Assembly: GCA_039640505.1 (NCBI GenBank)
Contig: CP046865.1
Location: 1,240,001 to 1,304,000, forward strand
DNA from: Rhodobacteraceae bacterium Araon29
GTDB taxonomy: Bacteria > Pseudomonadota > Alphaproteobacteria > Rhodobacterales > Rhodobacteraceae
Length of the DNA stretch: 64,000 nt
Reading direction: 5' to 3'
Below the pieces are notes generated by a model, which worked only from the letters and a program-made list of their open reading frames with translations, searched no databases and was not told the DNA's origin. This document shows, piece after piece, positions 45,110 to 54,965 of this stretch (position 1 is its first letter; each line of letters opens with the position of its first letter). Position numbers and translations under genes: made by a program.

Positions 45110-45355
45110 ATGACGTTCTCTTATGTTTTGAACTTTGACCAACTTTTTAGGCAGCGCATTAAATCCGTTGAATTAATGCCGGCTGTGAACGACCGTTACT
45201 ATGACCGTCTGGTAAAGGCGTATGACGGGTTGTTAGATCGCAAAACCCAGCTTGAAAAAGCTGGCTCAGACGATTATTTGGCGCTGGATCACTTGGCATT
45301 GCTCTGCCATATTCTGCGGGCACAAATTGATAGTGATCAACAGCTTAGCGTATGA
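45110..45355 (+). CDS. 81-residue hypothetical protein
   Basis: Starts MTFSYVLNFDQLFRQRIKSV at ATG 45110 with TGAGG upstream. It is a charged, mostly helical small protein (YYDRLVKAYDGLLDRKTQLEKAG, LALDHLALLCHILRAQIDSD) with no signal or membrane segment. Its 3' end overlaps the 3' end of the convergent pccR by 11 bases. I do not recognise a family. Confidence 0.6.
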   Translation: MTFSYVLNFDQLFRQRIKSVELMPAVNDRYYDRLVKAYDGLLDRKTQLEKAGSDDYLALDHLALLCHILRAQIDSDQQLSV

Positions 45356-46745
45356 AATATGGAAGGATGTCACGTTGGTTGGGATCTACCGAAAGATTGC
45401 GTTCGAGCGGCGGAACAGACCGTTGGTGACAAGTCTTTCGCTCGCACAGACGGCAGGAAATGCCGATCGGTTCAAACGCATCAGGATTATTCAGATCAAG
45501 CGTATCTGAATAAACCAGAGCGCCAGCATGTTTGATCTCGCAGCCGAGCGCGATTGCAAAACGTTGCACTGGTGCGCCAAAAGATCCACCCGCTTTCGAG
45601 ACATCGCGGGCCAGTGATATATATCTTACCCCGTCTGGTGTTTCCGCCAATTGACGTAAAAAACGGCCCGGTGTTTCAAAGGCGCGGTGCACATTCCAAA
45701 GTGGGCAAGCCCCACCAAAACGGGCAAACTGCAACCGGGTTGCAGAGTGTCTTTTGGTGATAGTACCTGCCTGATCCACGCGGACAAAAAAGAACGGGAT
45801 ACCCTTGGCCCCGGGGCGCTGCAATGTTGACAGCCGATGCGCAACTTGTTCAATAGATACCCCAAATTTGGTGGCAAGGCGCTCTAGATCATGACGCTCA
45901 GATTGCGCAGCTTCAAGAAATAGCCGGTAGGGCATCAGGGCTGCCCCGGCATAATAGTTCGCTAGCCCTATTTTTGCGATGGCGCGGGCTTCGTCGGTTT
46001 GAAAACGTGCCAAATCCAGAGTTGCTTCAATCAAAGGGTTTTGGGTGATCAAAGCCAGTTGCAAGATCATTTGGAAGGCTTGGGTTTGCGGGCTGCTGTG
46101 CACTGAAAGGCTCAGCGTCCCGCTGTTTGTATCAAAATGGCGAAGCGCCGGATGATCGCCGTAGCGCAGCTTCACCCCGTTTTTTTCAAGTTGTTGTTCA
46201 GCGGCGTTTCTGACCCAGTCAGGACCATCGCACGCTTTGGCAAAAAGTTCCGCGCTTCGGTCGACAGCATCTATATAATTATCACAATAATGAAAGAAAT
46301 CACGCACCTCTTCCCATGGGCTCGGCTGCAGCCTAGCATCGTCGCGCCCCAAGGCTTCGTCGAGCGACATTAGACGTTCTTGGGTTTGGCGGTAGGCGCG
46401 ATGAAGCTCTAAAAATGCGCGTGTTAAAGCTGGCGCATTTGAGGCAGCAAGTCGCACATCGGCCAAGGCTGGCTGGGTTTCTGCAAAAATAGGATCGGCC
46501 AATGCTTCCCGCATATCGCTCACAAGCCGCTCGCTATCACCTGTTGAAAGCTCAGTTACATCAAAGCCGAACTCTTGTGCGAGCGCCAGAAGTACTGCAC
46601 TTGATACCGGCCGGTTGTTGTTTTCCATCTGGTTGAGGTAGGGCAAAGACACCCCAAGCTTTGATGCAAAAGATTTTTGGGTCAGCGAAAGCCGTTGCCG
46701 CAGATCGCGCAGCTTTGCCCCAGCATAGATTTTTCGTCCCCTCAT
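45345..46745 (-). CDS. pccR: short-chain fatty acyl regulator PccR (ScfR family)
   Basis: 466-residue regulator with an N-terminal XRE helix-turn-helix (LRDLRQRLSLTQKSFASKLGVSLPYLNQMENNNRPVS), a middle ImmA/IrrE-like domain and a DUF2083 C-terminal part ending with a cysteine cluster (CRLCERKTCHQR). This layout defines the ScfR family, including PccR of Rhodobacter, which controls propionyl-CoA carboxylase, and RamB of corynebacteria. Proximity to pccB/pccA/mcm supports PccR. Start 46745 was chosen because the upstream extension overlaps the MFS gene region and AAAGG is well placed. TTTGCAAA octamers precede the gene. Confidence 0.9.
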   Translation of the reverse strand: MRGRKIYAGAKLRDLRQRLSLTQKSFASKLGVSLPYLNQMENNNRPVSSAVLLALAQEFGFDVTELSTGDSERLVSDMREALADPIFAETQPALADVRLAASNAPALTRAFLELHRAYRQTQERLMSLDEALGRDDARLQPSPWEEVRDFFHYCDNYIDAVDRSAELFAKACDGPDWVRNAAEQQLEKNGVKLRYGDHPALRHFDTNSGTLSLSVHSSPQTQAFQMILQLALITQNPLIEATLDLARFQTDEARAIAKIGLANYYAGAALMPYRLFLEAAQSERHDLERLATKFGVSIEQVAHRLSTLQRPGAKGIPFFFVRVDQAGTITKRHSATRLQFARFGGACPLWNVHRAFETPGRFLRQLAETPDGVRYISLARDVSKAGGSFGAPVQRFAIALGCEIKHAGALVYSDTLDLNNPDAFEPIGISCRLCERKTCHQRSVPPLERNLSVDPNQRDILPYFIR

Positions 46746-46809: not shown

Positions 46810-48027
46810 TTATTTATCACCTAGCCTAGCGTTGCGCCGGCGAACATATAAGATGCAGAGTACGCCGCCAGCTGCGGAGAGCCACATCAGGCAGACCAAA
46901 GGCATTTCGCTGCTGCCAGGTTTTAAGATTAAACCACTGGCGGCTGACAAGGCTGCCCCGCCACCGATCATGATTGCGCTTCCAAGCCCAGATGCGGCAC
47001 CTGCAAGGTGCGGCCGGACGGACAGCATGCCAGCTGTTGCATTAGGCATGGTGATCCCGTTGCCCAAGCCAACAAAAGTCATCAAACCAAAAAAGCTTGT
47101 TGCACTACCGTAGCCAGCGTAGCTCACCAATAAAGATAGCGACATCCCGACCATAGTGACCAACAAACCCCATAGCACCATTCTATCGATACCAATCTGC
47201 TTTGAAAAACGGCCGGAAAGAAAGTTGCCAAGAATATATCCAATTGCCGGCACGCCAATGTAAATACCAAGGGCTTCTGGTGTTAAATTAAATACCACCG
47301 ACCCAACGAAAGGGCCGCCGCCTAGAAAGGCAAAGAATGCGCCTGCACCAAGCGCCGAGGAAATACAGTAGCCCCAAAAACGACGCGCTTTAAGCAGTTC
47401 GGAATATTCGGCAAATTGGCTACTAATTTTATGGGTCGATGGCGCTGCTGTTTCACCCTGATCAAGATAGCAAATTAGCCAAATTACCACTCCTACAGCA
47501 GCCAAAAACCAAAAATTGGATTGCCAGCCAAGCCAGCCGTCTAAAAATCCGCCCAAAACAGGGCTCAGCATAGGCACAATCGCCATGCCCATGGTGACAT
47601 AGCCAATTTTGGACCCGGATTCAGAGGTTTCGGTTGTATCGCGTACGATGGCGCGTGAAATAACAACACAACAGGCAGACACTGCCTGAACCGCCCGAAG
47701 GGCAAGAAAGACATGAATATTTGGTGCATAGATTATGACTATGCTTGTGACAGCAAAAATGCCTAGCGCCCAAAGAGCAACAGGTCTTCGGCCAAATAGA
47801 TCAGAAAGCGGCCCAGCGGCCAGTTGTAGCATAGCGCTCGCTCCAAGATAGATTCCAACCGAAAGTCCGACAATTGCCGGCGTGCTGTTAAAATGCGTTG
47901 CCATGCGTGGTAAACTTGGCAAAAACATATTCATTGCCAAAGCCGAAATGCTTGAGAGCAAGATCAACGTTGCCATATGTGGTTGTGTGCTATGGTTTAA
48001 AAACCGAGCTGCTGGAAAATTGCTCAT
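46810..48027 (-). CDS. Bcr/CflA-type MFS multidrug efflux transporter
   Basis: 405-residue major facilitator with 12 hydrophobic segments. MFS signature LAAGPLSDLFGRRPVAL between helices 2 and 3, and RAVQAVSACCVVISRAIVRD, as in Bcr/CflA. The gene is divergent from pccB and lies 64 bases upstream of pccR on the same strand. PccR octamers lie on both sides of it, so it may belong to the same regulon, perhaps as an acyl-acid exporter, but that is inference. Confidence 0.88.
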   Translation of the reverse strand: MSNFPAARFLNHSTQPHMATLILLSSISALAMNMFLPSLPRMATHFNSTPAIVGLSVGIYLGASAMLQLAAGPLSDLFGRRPVALWALGIFAVTSIVIIYAPNIHVFLALRAVQAVSACCVVISRAIVRDTTETSESGSKIGYVTMGMAIVPMLSPVLGGFLDGWLGWQSNFWFLAAVGVVIWLICYLDQGETAAPSTHKISSQFAEYSELLKARRFWGYCISSALGAGAFFAFLGGGPFVGSVVFNLTPEALGIYIGVPAIGYILGNFLSGRFSKQIGIDRMVLWGLLVTMVGMSLSLLVSYAGYGSATSFFGLMTFVGLGNGITMPNATAGMLSVRPHLAGAASGLGSAIMIGGGAALSAASGLILKPGSSEMPLVCLMWLSAAGGVLCILYVRRRNARLGDK

Positions 48028-48106
48028 TAATGTGTCGTATTCAGTTTCTTGGGTGGTGTCCAGAATTTTTGATCAAATGGGCAAATTAAGCACTGGCCTG
48101 ATTGGA

Positions 48107-48177
48107 TTAGCAAATTAGCAAGTTTGCAAAAATCAATTTACAATTATTTGCAAATTTGCTGAAAAGTACTTTGCGAT
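48107..48177. promoter_or_regulatory. cluster of TTTGCAAA-type octamers upstream of pccB (PccR site array)
   Basis: Three head-to-tail octamers TTAGCAAA, TTAGCAAG, TTTGCAAA fill 48107-48130 with no gap; TTTGCAAA recurs at 48147-48154, followed directly by TTTGCTGA and, at 48170, TTTGCGAT. The array lies in the divergent space between the MFS gene and pccB, 50-120 bases before the pccB start. It matches the TTTGCAAA core linked to PccR/RamB proteins. Confidence 0.72.
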
Positions 48178-48226
48178 AAAATTTATACGCGCTATCAGGG
48201 CGTTTAAAGACGCAAGGGGCTTGGTG

Positions 48227-49759
48227 ATGAAAGATATTTTGCAAGAACTTGAGGAACGGCGCGAAGCAGCACGCCAAGGCGGCGGGCAAAAGCGGATTGA
48301 TGCACAGCACTCCAAAGGCAAGCTAACCGCACGTGAACGGATTGATCTTTTGCTTGATGAGGATAGCTTTGAAGAGTTTGATATGTTCGTTGCACATCGC
48401 TGTACTGATTTTGGGATGGAAAAGCAACGCCCTTCAGGGGATGGTGTGGTTACGGGGTGGGGCACAATTAATGGCCGGATGGTTTATGTGTTTTCACAGG
48501 ACTTCACCGTCTTTGGTGGGTCGCTATCGGAAACCCACGCCCAAAAAATCTGCAAAATAATGGATATGGCCATGCAAAATGGCGCTCCGGTTATTGGTTT
48601 GAATGACTCAGGCGGCGCGCGCATTCAAGAGGGTGTTGCCTCATTGGCTGGTTACGCCGAAGTGTTTCAACGCAATGTTCTGGCATCGGGTGTAGTGCCG
48701 CAGATTAGTGTGATCATGGGGCCTTGTGCCGGTGGAGCGGTATATTCGCCTGCCATGACGGATTTCATCTTTATGGTCAAAGACAGTTCCTACATGTTTG
48801 TCACTGGTCCGGATGTTGTGAAAACGGTGACAAATGAGGTGGTAACCGCCGAAGAACTGGGTGGCGCAGACACCCATACCAAAAAATCATCGGTTGCAGA
48901 TGGGGCTTTTGAGAATGATGTCGAGGCGCTTGCCGAAGTGCGCCGTTTGGTGGATTATCTGCCGCTGAACAACCGTCAAAAGCCGCCAGTACGGCCCTTC
49001 TTTGATCAGCCTGGCCGGGTTGAGCCTTCGCTCGATACATTGGTGCCGGATAACGCCAACACTCCCTATGATATGAAAGAGCTTATTCTAAAAGTAGCTG
49101 ATGAGGGCGATTTTTACGAATTACAGCAAGAGTTTGCGAAAAATATCATCACTGGCTTTATGCGGCTGGAAGGCCAAAGCGTCGGGGTGGTGGCGAACCA
49201 ACCGATGATGCTTGCAGGCTGTTTGGACATTGACAGCTCACGCAAAGCCGCGCGGTTTGTGCGCTTTTGTGATGCGTTTGAAATCCCAATCCTGACCTTG
49301 GTGGATGTACCTGGGTTTTTACCCGGGACCGGGCAAGAGTACGGTGGAGTGATCAAACACGGTGCAAAATTGCTGTTTGCTTATGGCGAAGCGACCGTCC
49401 CGAAAGTAACCGTGATCACCCGCAAAGCCTATGGTGGGGCCTATGATGTGATGGCCTCAAAGCATTTGCGCGGTGATTTTAATTATGCTTGGCCAACCGC
49501 CGAAATCGCCGTGATGGGCGCCAAAGGCGCAACCGAAATTATCCACCGCGCTGATCTGGGGGATACAGCAAAGATCGCGCAGCACACGCAGGATTACGAA
49601 AACCGCTTTGCCAATCCATTTGTCGCTGCCGAGCGCGGCTTCATAGACGAGGTTATCCAACCTCGTTCCACCCGCCGCCGCGTCAGCCGAGCTTTCGCAT
49701 CGCTGCGCGGCAAGCAGCAAAAAAACCCTTGGAAAAAACACGACAATATTCCGCTTTGA
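48227..49759 (+). CDS. pccB: propionyl-CoA carboxylase beta subunit
   Basis: 510-residue carboxyltransferase subunit; transfers CO2 from biotin to propionyl-CoA, giving methylmalonyl-CoA. ATG 48227 has AAGGGG seven bases upstream; TTG 48221 and GTG 48224 are in frame but less likely. Crotonase-like halves: [62 protein letters not shown] and [18 protein letters not shown]. Pairs with PccA downstream. Confidence 0.95.
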
Positions 49760-50219: not shown

Positions 50220-52220
50220 ATGTTCGACAAAATTTTAATTGCAAACCGTGGTGAAATAGCATGCCGAGTGATAAAAACTGCGCGCAGGATGGGAATAAAG
50301 ACCGTTGCTGTGTATTCAGATGCCGATCGTAATGCTTTACATGTTCAAATGGCCGATGAAGCCGTACATATCGGTCCACCGCCAGCGAACCAATCCTACA
50401 TCGTCATCGAAAATATCCTAAAGGCGATACGCGAAACAGGCGCCCAAGCGGTTCACCCTGGATATGGATTTTTGTCAGAAAACCCGAAGTTTGCCGCCGC
50501 TTTGGCCGCCGAAGGTGTTGCATTTATCGGCCCGCCACAGGGCGCGATCGAAAGCATGGGCGACAAAATAACCAGTAAAAAAATTGCTCAGGACGCTGGT
50601 GTAAGCACAGTGCCGGGCTACATGGGTTTGATTGAAGATGCCGAAGAAGCTGTGCGCATCAGCCAAGAGATTGGTTATCCCGTGATGATAAAAGCCTCTG
50701 CCGGCGGTGGCGGAAAAGGGATGCGGATTGCGTGGTCTGATGATGAGGCGCGCGAGGGCTTTCAATCGTCAAAAAACGAAGCCGCAAGCAGTTTCGGCGA
50801 TGATCGCATCTTTATCGAAAAGTTTGTCACGCAGCCGCGGCATATCGAAATTCAGGTGCTTGCTGACACGCATGGAAATTGCATTTATTTGGGCGAGCGC
50901 GAATGCTCGATTCAAAGGCGCAACCAGAAAGTGGTCGAAGAGGCGCCCTCTCCATTTTTGGATGAAGCAACTCGAAAAGCGATGGGTGCTCAGGCTTGTG
51001 CACTGGCCAGCGCAGTAGATTATGCCAGCGCCGGAACAGTGGAATTCATCGTGGACAGCGAAAAGAAATTTTACTTTTTGGAAATGAATACCCGTTTGCA
51101 GGTTGAACATCCGGTGACCGAATTGATTACCGGCGTTGATCTGGTGGAACAAATGATCCGTGTTGCAAATGGCGAAGCACTTGAGTTGTCCCAAAAAGAT
51201 GTCACTATAAATGGGTGGGCAATTGAAAATCGGCTGTATGCCGAAGATCCTTATCGGAATTTTCTGCCCTCTATTGGTCGTTTGACCCGATATCGCCCAC
51301 CTGCTGAAATCGCCACTGACGCTTTTGTTATACGCAATGATACCGGGGTTTATGAGGGTGGCGAAATTAGCATGTATTACGATCCGATGATTGCCAAGCT
51401 TTGCACTTGGGCGCCAAGCCGCACCGAGGCGATTGAACACATGCGCTTGGCACTTGATCAGTTTGAGGTCGAAGGCATTGGTCATAACCTGCCGTTTTTA
51501 AGCGCGGTGATGGATCATCCGAAGTTTGTCAGTGGCGCGATCACGACAGCGTTTATCGGCGAAGAATATCCTGATGGATTTACCGGCGCGCAATTGGCCG
51601 AGCCTATGTTACGCAAGATCGCTGCAAGCTGTGCGGCGATGCACCGTGTGGCTGAAATCCGCCGTGCAAAAATATCGGGCCGGCTCGACAATCATGAACG
51701 AAAAGTTGGCGATGACTGGGTGGTCACACTAGGCGGGCAGCGTTATGAGATTGTGATCAACGCGGACCCGCAGGGCTCTACTGTGCGCTTTGCCGATAAG
51801 CCAGAGTTGCGGGTGTCCTCTGATTGGACCCCAGGGACGGCTCTAGCGGAAATGATGGTGGACGGCGCGCCTTTGGTAATGAAGACCACCAAGATTCCCG
51901 GCGGCTTTCATGTACGCAGCCGGGGCGCAGATTTAAAAGTGCATGTTCGCACCCCACGTCAAGCCGAACTTGCCGATAAAATGCCGGAAAAACAACCGCC
52001 CGATACCTCAAAACTGCTGCTGTGCCCAATGCCCGGATTGGTGGTGAAAATTGATGTGAAGCCCGGTCAGCAGGTTGAAGAAGGTCAGGCTTTGTGCACC
52101 GTCGAAGCAATGAAAATGGAAAATATCCTACGTGCCGAGCGCAAAGGGATTGTGGGGTGCGTCAATGCCGTTTCTGGTGACAGTTTGGCAGTGGATGATA
52201 TTATTATGGAGTTCGAGTAA
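50220..52220 (+). CDS. pccA: propionyl-CoA carboxylase alpha subunit (biotin-containing)
   Basis: 666-residue biotin carboxylase/BCCP subunit. Starts MFDKILIANRGEIACRVIKTA at ATG 50220, with AGAAGGAC upstream; the 22-codon upstream extension overlaps the previous gene. Domain order: biotin carboxylase about 1-450 (ATP grasp KASAGGGGKGMRIAW, EMNTRLQVEHPVTE), BT linker about 460-600, and biotinyl domain with biotinylated Lys632 in VEAMKMEN, 34 residues from the C-terminus as usual. Forms the dodecamer with PccB. Confidence 0.96.
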   Translation: MFDKILIANRGEIACRVIKTARRMGIKTVAVYSDADRNALHVQMADEAVHIGPPPANQSYIVIENILKAIRETGAQAVHPGYGFLSENPKFAAALAAEGVAFIGPPQGAIESMGDKITSKKIAQDAGVSTVPGYMGLIEDAEEAVRISQEIGYPVMIKASAGGGGKGMRIAWSDDEAREGFQSSKNEAASSFGDDRIFIEKFVTQPRHIEIQVLADTHGNCIYLGERECSIQRRNQKVVEEAPSPFLDEATRKAMGAQACALASAVDYASAGTVEFIVDSEKKFYFLEMNTRLQVEHPVTELITGVDLVEQMIRVANGEALELSQKDVTINGWAIENRLYAEDPYRNFLPSIGRLTRYRPPAEIATDAFVIRNDTGVYEGGEISMYYDPMIAKLCTWAPSRTEAIEHMRLALDQFEVEGIGHNLPFLSAVMDHPKFVSGAITTAFIGEEYPDGFTGAQLAEPMLRKIAASCAAMHRVAEIRRAKISGRLDNHERKVGDDWVVTLGGQRYEIVINADPQGSTVRFADKPELRVSSDWTPGTALAEMMVDGAPLVMKTTKIPGGFHVRSRGADLKVHVRTPRQAELADKMPEKQPPDTSKLLLCPMPGLVVKIDVKPGQQVEEGQALCTVEAMKMENILRAERKGIVGCVNAVSGDSLAVDDIIMEFE

Positions 52221-52281: not shown

Positions 52282-52707
52282 TTATTTCTTGGCTTTAATT
52301 TCCTGTCGGCGCATGGGCATTTTATCAATTGCTCGGCTCAGTGCGCGCAAATCCCATGGAAATGGTTTGCGCAGTTTAACCTGCCCGTCTTTTCCAATGA
52401 GCAAAATCGTAAACCCACGGGGGCGGAATTTTTGCCGCAGCGGACTGTCCATTGCTGGGTCAGAGTCTGTTAAAACCACGATTTCTCGCTCTGCTAAAGC
52501 GGCAGGATCAATTTGTAGAAATTCGATCTGGGTTTGGAAACGGACATCCTGTTTTGAATTGGAAAAGATGATAATCAAACGATTTTGCCAGGCGAATGTC
52601 TCCAGGTCTGTTTCTGATGTTACAGTTTGGAATAGATCGGCATGCTCATCGGCAAATCCGATTGCGGCGGTTACCGACAGTATTGCTGCCAAAATCAATT
52701 GTTTCAT
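52282..52707 (-). CDS. secreted DUF4174-domain protein
   Basis: 141-residue protein on the strand opposite to pccA and mcm, nested between them. Signal peptide about residues 1-19 (MKQLILAAILSVTAAIGFA); mature domain has FAWQNRLIIIFSNS and RPRGFTILLIGKDGQVKLRKPFPWDLRALSRAIDKMPMRRQE, as in DUF4174, which resembles a thioredoxin-like fold without a cysteine pair. Function unknown. The opposite-strand frame at 52223 overlaps it but does not look like a protein. Confidence 0.83.
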   Translation of the reverse strand: MKQLILAAILSVTAAIGFADEHADLFQTVTSETDLETFAWQNRLIIIFSNSKQDVRFQTQIEFLQIDPAALAEREIVVLTDSDPAMDSPLRQKFRPRGFTILLIGKDGQVKLRKPFPWDLRALSRAIDKMPMRRQEIKAKK

Positions 52708-52835: not shown

Positions 52836-54965
52836 ATGGCGAATAGCAAACAGTCATGGCGCACGGCCGCCGAAAAAGAACTGCGCGGCAAAAGCCTAGA
52901 GGATCTGACATGGAAAACGCTTGAAGGTATTGATATCAATACGCTTTATACATCCGAAGATGTCTCTGGGCTGGACCATATGGACAGCTTGCCGGGCCAA
53001 GAGCCATTTGTCCGCGGGGTTCGGTCAACGATGTATGCCGGTCGGCCGTGGACCATTCGCCAATACGCAGGTTTTTCCACGGCTGAGGCATCAAATGCGT
53101 TTTACAGAAAAGCATTGGCAGCTGGTCAGCAAGGGGTTTCGGTGGCCTTTGATTTGGCCACACACCGGGGATATGACAGTGATCATCCGAGGGTGATTGG
53201 GGATGTTGGCAAGGCCGGCGTTGCCATTGATAGCGTCGAAGACATGAAAATTCTTTTCGACAGCATCCCTTTGGATCAAGTGTCTGTCTCAATGACCATG
53301 AACGGCGCGGTGATCCCAGTTCTGGCGAATTTTATTGTCGCAGGCGAAGAGCAAGGCCACGATAAAGCAAAGCTATCTGGCACCATTCAAAATGATATTC
53401 TAAAAGAGTTCATGGTGCGTAATACCTATATTTATCCGCCCGAACCTTCTATGCGCATTGTGGCGGATATTATAGAATATACCTCAAACGAAATCCCCAA
53501 GTTCAATTCTATTTCGATCTCTGGATACCACATGCAGGAAGCCGGGGCGAATTTAGTGCAGGAACTGGCGTTTACACTGGCTGATGGCAAAGAATACGTC
53601 AAAACAGCCATTGCACGCGGGATGGATGTGGATCACTTCGCTGGGCGGCTGTCGTTCTTTTTCGCGATCGGAATGAACTTTTTCATGGAGGCAGCAAAGC
53701 TGCGTGCAGCGCGGCTTTTGTGGCATCGCATCATGACCGATCTTGGGGCGAAAAACCCGCGCTCAAAAATGCTGCGGACCCATTGCCAGACCTCAGGTGT
53801 CAGCTTGCAAGAACAAGATCCTTATAACAACGTGGTGCGGACAGCTTATGAAGCGATGAGCGCTGTTCTGGGTGGCACCCAGTCGCTGCACACCAATGCT
53901 TTGGATGAAGCGATTGCATTGCCAACTGAATTTGCCGCCCGTATCGCACGCAACACTCAGCTTATATTGCAAGAAGAAACCGGCGTGACCAATGTAGTCG
54001 ATCCACTTGCAGGATCCTATTATGTAGAAAAGCTGACCGCGGATTTGGCCGATGCGGCATGGCAGATCATCGAAGAGGTCGACACCATGGGGGGCATGAC
54101 CAAAGCTGTGGCCAGCGGAATGCCGAAACTGCGTATCGAAGAAGCCGCAGCCCAGCGGCAAGCCAATATAGATCGCGGCGAGCAGGTGATTGTGGGGGTA
54201 AACAAATATCGCCTTGATCAAGAGGATGACATTGAAATTCGCGATATAGACAACGCTGCCGTACGCGAAACGCAGATCGCGCGGTTAGATTCAATCCGCG
54301 AAGATCGCGATGCTGCGCGCTGTGAAGCGGCGCTGGGCGAAATATCGCGGCGTGCGGCCGAAGGTGGTAATTTGCTAGAAGCAGCTGTCGAAGCTGCCCG
54401 CGCGCGCGCTACCGTTGGAGAGATTAGCATGGCTATGGAGAAAGTGTTTGGGCGCCACCGCGCTGAAGTGAAAACATTAGCGGGGGTTTATGGCAAAGCT
54501 TATGAAGGCGATACAGAGTTTGAGAAAATCCAAAAGTCGGTTGAGCAATTTGCCAAAGAGGAAGGCCGCCGGCCGCGCATGCTGGTGGTAAAAATGGGAC
54601 AGGATGGGCATGACCGAGGCGCGAAAGTCATCGCCACCGCCTTTGCTGATATCGGTTTTGATGTTGATGTTGGTCCGCTTTTTCAAACTCCTGATGAAGC
54701 CGCGCAGGATGCCATTGACAATGATGTTCATGTGATTGGTATTTCCAGTCAGGCAGCAGGTCACAAGACACTTGCGCCCAAACTTATCGAGGTGCTTGAA
54801 GCGCGTGATGCTGGCGATATTTTGGTGATTTGCGGCGGTGTGATCCCGCAACAGGATTATGACTTTTTAAAGTCCGCAGGCGTCAAGGCAATCTTTGGAC
54901 CGGGAACCAATATTCCCGCCGCTGCACAAGAAATTTTGGAATTGATCCGCGCAACACGTGACTAA
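52836..54965 (+). CDS. mcm: methylmalonyl-CoA mutase (large, homodimeric type)
   Basis: 709-residue B12-dependent mutase converting methylmalonyl-CoA to succinyl-CoA, the last step of the propionate path. Start ATG 52836 follows AAGGAGAG. The barrel domain shows [14 protein letters not shown] and [16 protein letters not shown]; cobalamin domain at the C-terminus has [23 protein letters not shown] with cobalt-ligating His592 (DxHxxG). The N-terminal and C-terminal domains are fused in one chain, as usual for alphaproteobacteria. A terminator follows. Confidence 0.95.

Follow-up and report, generated by a model that had tools for sequence, protein, structure and literature searches.

The octamer array upstream of pccB is very probably the operator at which PccR, an ScfR-family regulator encoded two genes away, would activate pccB in the presence of propionyl-CoA while limiting expression of its own gene, as studied relatives of this protein lead us to expect for its binding, ligand, activation, oligomeric state and autoregulation. 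The array has a conserved geometry, occurs together with PccR across the family and is unique in this genome.

Octamers in the gap upstream of pccB

All coordinates given here refer to the window, that is, the whole 64-kb stretch of DNA that was analysed, and its relevant features are collected in Table 1. Downstream of the array lie pccB, pccA and a methylmalonyl-CoA mutase gene, as suits a PccR neighbourhood. A 141-aa ORF (52282-52707, minus strand) is found between pccA and the mutase gene. The regulator is a full-length ScfR protein whose matches to PF01381, PF06114 and PF09856 were all above the curated cut-offs, and at E 1e-3 it was the only ScfR regulator found in this genome. Against the RamB equivalog NF038139 it scored 428.6 bits and, because this is below the curated cut-off of 700, we did not file it as RamB. 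Its best solved relative was Mycobacterium tuberculosis PrpR (MtPrpR; 6CYY, phmmer E 2.8e-82). The segment SCRLCERKTC of the regulator aligned with GCKICNRTSC of 6CYY, a CX2CX4C motif which together with one upstream Cys forms the set of [4Fe4S] ligands in MtPrpR; C347 aligned with the Cys of GGSCPLW, and the columns of the cluster-ligand cysteines were invariant in 11 orthologs. By motif alignment, W144 in PWEEVRDFF was placed at the Phe of PFEEVRDFF (taken to be Phe155 of MtPrpR). According to the available part of PMC6765138, Rhodobacter sphaeroides PccR has a Trp at this residue 155 position, where MtPrpR has Phe. Because of its family, its neighbourhood and this Trp residue we call the regulator PccR, an assignment made from sequence.

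Table 1. Features of the pccR-pccB region in the window
Feature	Position	Strand	Basis or remark
pccR, ScfR-family regulator (HTH, IrrE-like region, ScfR C-terminal domain)	45345..46745	-	PF09856 1.3e-69, PF06114 7.1e-21, PF01381 7.8e-12
pccR-proximal octamer TTTGCAAA	46756..46763	-	starts 18 bp before pccR ATG
pccR-distal octamer TTTGCAAA	46786..46793	-	30 bp from the other octamer; starts 48 bp before pccR ATG
Bcr/CflA-type MFS efflux transporter, between pccR and pccB	46810..48027	-	TIGR00710 239.3 bits, cut-off 200.9
Putative MFS promoter TGGACA-N17-TACGAC	48034..48062	-	6 bp before ATG; function predicted
Distal operator (predicted), three abutting octamers TTAGCAAA-TTAGCAAG-TTTGCAAA	48107..48130	+	sequence; offsets -40, -32, -24 from the proximal octamer
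Degenerate middle box TTTACAAT	48137..48144	+	offset -10, two mismatches, weak
Proximal operator (predicted), TTTGCAAA then directly TTTGCTGA	48147..48162	+	half-site TTTGC at +8
-35 box of pccB, CTTTGC	48169..48174	+	fixed offset +22; consensus CTTTGg in aligned promoters
Putative -10 box of pccB, TATCAG	48193..48198	+	18 bp after -35; conserved TAtg at offset +46; role predicted
pccB, propionyl-CoA carboxylase beta subunit	48230..49759	+	PF01039 3.6e-200; name proposed from family and neighbours
pccA, propionyl-CoA carboxylase alpha subunit with PCC_BT domain	50220..52220	+	PF18140 4.8e-34; query began one codon before ATG
Methylmalonyl-CoA mutase	52836..54965	+	NF006944 1255 bits, cut-off 876; query began one codon after ATG

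The six words named in the initial annotation were all read at their positions, with TTAGCAAA at 48107, TTAGCAAG at 48115, TTTGCAAA at both 48123 and 48147, TTTGCTGA at 48155 and TTTGCGAT at 48170; the last two each differ from TTTGCAAA by two mismatches. Missed at that stage were the two octamers upstream of pccR (46756 and 46786) and the degenerate middle box. Single octamer matches carry no weight, because octamers with at most one mismatch occurred at chance level over the whole window (75 found against 74.6 expected). We therefore give the spacing separately. In 5000 dinucleotide-preserving shuffles of the AT-rich MFS-pccB gap (48028-48229, 202 bp, GC 37%), the three TTNGC half-site pairs observed 8 bp apart were never equalled, and the two pairs observed 40 bp apart were equalled once. 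The presence of two exact octamers was less extreme than this spacing, being equalled in 14 shuffles, and three octamers with at most one mismatch were equalled in 178. The regular spacing of the pccB octamers is thus not a product of chance.

At the level of the whole 3.66-Mb genome, two exact octamers separated by a gap of 10-30 bp were present only at two loci, the upstream regions of pccB and pccR. The exact word TTTGCAAATTTGC occurred a single time, at 48147. Allowing one mismatch gave 33 matches, and the 30 loci inspected were mostly inside open reading frames: seven were outside ORFs of at least 150 aa, one of these seven being part of the pccB array (L065), and the pccB site itself was scored as inside an ORF owing to an upstream in-frame start. 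Since the other one-mismatch copies lay mostly within ORFs (30 of 33 inspected), we rejected the idea of further strong targets in this genome.

Conservation of the array among relatives

PccR orthologs, with E up to 1e-140, were present in 248 of the 296 genomes of the family. We used 193 loci, 26 of which had no usable pccB start, and the remaining 167 yielded 158 distinct 200-bp upstream regions. Aligning the pccB upstream regions of relatives, which had been named as a check in the initial annotation, revealed octamers conserved in place: in a profile alignment 153 of the 158 distinct regions had the same composite element at fixed distances from a sigma-70-like promoter, although these and the following counts are not independent events because the sequences are related by descent. 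The possibility that the array is peculiar to this genome was rejected on the same figure. In the composite layout, a proximal TTTGCAAA-TTTGC stands just upstream of the -35 box, and a distal row of TTNGC half-sites follows 40, 32 and 25 bp further upstream, the third of them at 24 bp instead of 25 in this genus.

Among the 153 aligned promoters, the octamer at offset 0 was exact in 140 and had at most one mismatch in 152. TTNGC half-sites were found at -40 in 124, at -32 in 121, at -25 in 71, at -24 in 16 and at +8 in 119, compared with a mean of 0.8 and a maximum of 14 at 101 control offsets, from which the known positions and two offsets overlapping the -35 box were left out. The distal half-sites varied, with those at -40 and -32 both intact in 94 promoters and at least one of them in 151. 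A middle box, defined as an octamer with at most two mismatches between -14 and -7, was present in 78 promoters, mostly at -11, -10 or -9. The boxes were conserved and most bases between them varied. Because the profile alignment used the distal columns, the unbiased support comes from a separate alignment, for which the proximal 13-mer was the sole anchor. Here, 150 of the 158 regions aligned and the same peaks at -40, -32, -25 and +8 appeared, with octamers of at most two mismatches numbering 90, 102, 35 and 112, respectively; in up to 20 sequences the anchor landed on the distal copy, which was visible as a peak at +40.

Five of the 158 promoters did not fit the profile. One of these (L024) was without octamers, and the other four (L027, L028, L085 and L089) had some, arranged otherwise. 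L085 is on Sinorhizobium meliloti pSymB, where octamer-like words lie in a different layout between a PccR relative and an annotated acyl-CoA carboxylase beta gene. The genome scan retained 80 loci, none of them named Rhodobacter sphaeroides.

The alignment also located the pccB promoter, since the conserved CTTTGg at +22 and TAtg at +46 have the spacing of -35 and -10 boxes. In the window CTTTGC falls at this conserved +22 position, so that the word at 48170, which had been taken for a sixth octamer copy, is the -35 box of pccB; its reading as an operator copy was ruled out by this alignment. Nine bases separate the proximal 13-mer (48147-48159) from the -35 box, or six if the full 16 bases of the proximal operator are counted, and pccB transcription would start near 48205.

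Octamers were a regular feature upstream of pccR as well. In a survey of 139 relatives with the MFS gene between pccR and pccB, counting octamers with at most one mismatch within 90 bp, at least one was present in 136 and two or more in 84, with 30 bp as the most frequent spacing (39 of the 84). Because these octamers are so close to the start of pccR, they suggest that PccR limits its own synthesis, which it probably does at this promoter by analogy with its relatives.

The array, PccR and the divergent MFS gene

A close PccR was lacking in 48 genomes of the family; we sampled 20 of these, and 19 had pccB; as 20 of 48 were sampled and an E-value cut-off was used, a divergent ScfR may be present in some of these genomes. 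Leaving out L260, in which the pccB match starts at residue 21, 18 pccB promoters could be assessed. An in-place octamer with one mismatch was seen in one of them (L251), another (L268) had one octamer out of place, and 16 had none within 200 bp of pccB. The in-place box of L251 has the degraded form TTTGCATA and may be what is left of a site whose regulator was lost recently. The operator boxes were thus conserved together with the regulator, in 152 of 153 aligned promoters against one of 18 without a close PccR, with the five further misfits among the 158.

A second search for pccB covered 13 genomes, selected for the most part on the grounds that pccB had not been seen near pccR or failed to match the profile, and 12 of them had the gene. 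Boxes were carried by eight of these (L298-L305) and were not found in L306; L307 and L308 are divergent layouts already counted among the misfits, and L309 was truncated. Where pccB was on a different contig from pccR, the boxes were kept in all five assessable cases (G293, G112, G028, G143 and G067). Considered with the PccR-less genomes and the MFS-pccB pairs described below, these five loci therefore indicate that it is pccB and the presence of PccR that the boxes follow, and not the MFS gene. The proposed link between array and PccR was borne out in this respect: the words hold their positions, accompany pccB and all but vanish where a close PccR is lacking. In three plasmid records (L084, Paracoccus denitrificans; L086, Pseudorhodobacter turbinis; L088, Paracoccus pantotrophus) pccR stood beside an MFS gene, and no pccB was found in the 5 kb covered on each side.

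The MFS gene has a putative promoter of its own. Its TGGACA was exact in 76 of the 139 relatives, with the MFS ATG starting 35-36 bp after the first base of this motif in 61 of the 76, and the form TGGACA-N17-TANNNN (48027-48062, minus strand), ending about 6 bp before the ATG, seems conserved. Because of this short distance, the MFS mRNA may be leaderless in many Rhodobacterales.

It is improbable that the array is an element of the divergent MFS gene, or is shared by both genes on an equal footing, with some regulator controlling efflux through it. The array does stand between MFS and pccB, its upstream edge 44 bp from the putative MFS -35 box in the window, and the MFS gene is between pccR and pccB in 139 of 158 relatives and near pccB in three of the five loci with pccB on another contig. 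However, its distance to the MFS -35 box (exact TGGACA) ranged from 14 to 119 bp in relatives, whereas that to the pccB -35 box was fixed. Moreover, where a close PccR was lacking, ten of the 19 loci kept the divergent MFS-pccB pair, and in those ten no octamer with at most one mismatch was found within 200 bp of pccB; conversely, L016 and L023 kept the array with no MFS gene beside pccB. On the variable spacing and the pairs without boxes we rejected the array as serving the MFS gene, and the suggestion in the initial annotation that it is placed to regulate this gene found weak backing at best. Direct control of the MFS gene by PccR, for which its position speaks, is unlikely.

Binding of these words by a regulator other than PccR appears very improbable. 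It would be compatible with TTTGCAAA being a short AT-rich palindrome and with the similar words used by RamB and PrpR (available parts of PMC4448153, PMC6765138 and PMC3420887), but the only ScfR protein found in this genome has, at its own promoter, the one other place where two exact octamers stand close together, and the array largely disappears along with close PccR orthologs. The same disappearance, together with boxes conserved amid varying bases and half-site spacings that beat 5000 of 5000 (8 bp) and 4999 of 5000 (40 bp) shuffles, makes it extremely unlikely that we are dealing with chance repeats in an AT-rich intergenic region or with passive inheritance without function, even though single octamers in the window were at chance level.

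Proposed working and relation to known regulators

With the array as the PccR operator of pccB, PccR would recognise TTTGCAAA and its TTTGC half-site, and would meet two tandem half-site pairs exactly 40 bp apart, the distal pair carrying a third repeat. Because the two pairs stand at this distance, PccR would probably touch both of them, in the form of one or two tetramers located upstream of RNA polymerase; the proximal pair would be the one adjacent to the polymerase. PccR that has bound propionyl-CoA, or a related acyl-CoA, would then lead to transcription of pccB and possibly of genes downstream, and the two octamers near the pccR start codon, usually 30 bp apart, would probably allow PccR to hold down its own production. 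Binding as a multimer agrees with the layout of the array and with the tetramers reported for relatives in the available parts of PMC6765138 and PMC10370305. A more specific version, which we regard as tentative and rather doubtful, is that the pccB operator acts as a molecular ruler, in which the two tandem pairs, the third distal repeat and the weak middle box would hold one extended PccR assembly (e.g. two tetramers) over ~56 bp that would change from a closed to an activating form on propionyl-CoA.

For R. sphaeroides PccR, Carter and Alber reportedly described in 2015 an octamer core TTTGCAAA with the spacing TTTGCAAA-X4-TTTGCAAA. This X4 spacing is not used in the window, and an octamer placed accordingly, 12 bp ahead of the proximal copy, was present in 2 of 153 relatives, so that it is an unlikely layout for the array. 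In the accessible text of PMC12632250, R. sphaeroides PccR controls pccB, and judging from the same source and PMC10370305 the Rhodobacter (Cereibacter) sphaeroides PccR-pccB system shares its regulator family, target gene and pathway with the one described here, one difference being the MFS gene that intervenes between pccR and pccB in this genome.

More distant ScfR systems share parts of this picture. M. tuberculosis PrpR, in the available parts of PMC6765138 and PMC3420887, uses a perfect and an imperfect TTTGCAAA in tandem, as one 17-bp pair with a 1-bp gap; it is a tetramer in the crystal, has CoA and [4Fe4S] ligands and controls the methylcitrate cycle. As far as these excerpts go, both are ScfR-type regulators with tandem TTTGCAAA words, and the aligned cluster cysteines are conserved here; unlike the MtPrpR pair with its 1-bp gap, the pairs of the array are directly contiguous and are repeated 40 bp further upstream. 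Paracoccus denitrificans RamB, according to the available part of PMC10370305, is an ScfR activator of a glyoxylate cycle operon that needs both of two boxes upstream of its target, and its tetramer shifts towards a dimer with CoA esters; its boxes are separated by an 18-bp spacer, in contrast to the abutting octamers and 40-bp register here. The Corynebacterium glutamicum RamB site, AA/GAACTTTGCAAA, contains the TTTGCAAA that is also found in the array (PMC4448153, in the part available). This RamB is described there as mostly a repressor, unlike the activation proposed for PccR, and the pstS promoter of C. glutamicum as having two widely spaced RamB sites.

Neither the octamer core nor the ScfR family is new, and the array is most likely a refinement of a known propionate-use switch rather than a new system, because its spacing is constant in far more than a hundred relatives. 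A double-tandem layout with a 40-bp register was not found in the available portions of the literature on PrpR, RamB, Rhodobacterales regulons and the pccB promoter; the founding PccR paper lies outside this comparison, so that the novelty is that of a variant at most and may be smaller.

The persistent pairing of the two divergent genes (46810-49759) suggests a functional link between an efflux-type MFS transporter and propionyl-CoA carboxylase. If the ruler reading is true, the multi-box layout would be unlike the RamB and PrpR operators compared here, as represented in the excerpts cited. Registers fixed at 8 and 40 bp limit the ways in which a tetramer of the ScfR family, for which the cited literature, in the parts available, contains no solved DNA complex, can be placed on DNA, and they offer a specific signature for finding PccR targets. 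Altogether, what had been a loosely defined motif can now be described as an exact promoter arrangement for the assimilation of propionyl-CoA, shared by a large and mainly marine bacterial group.
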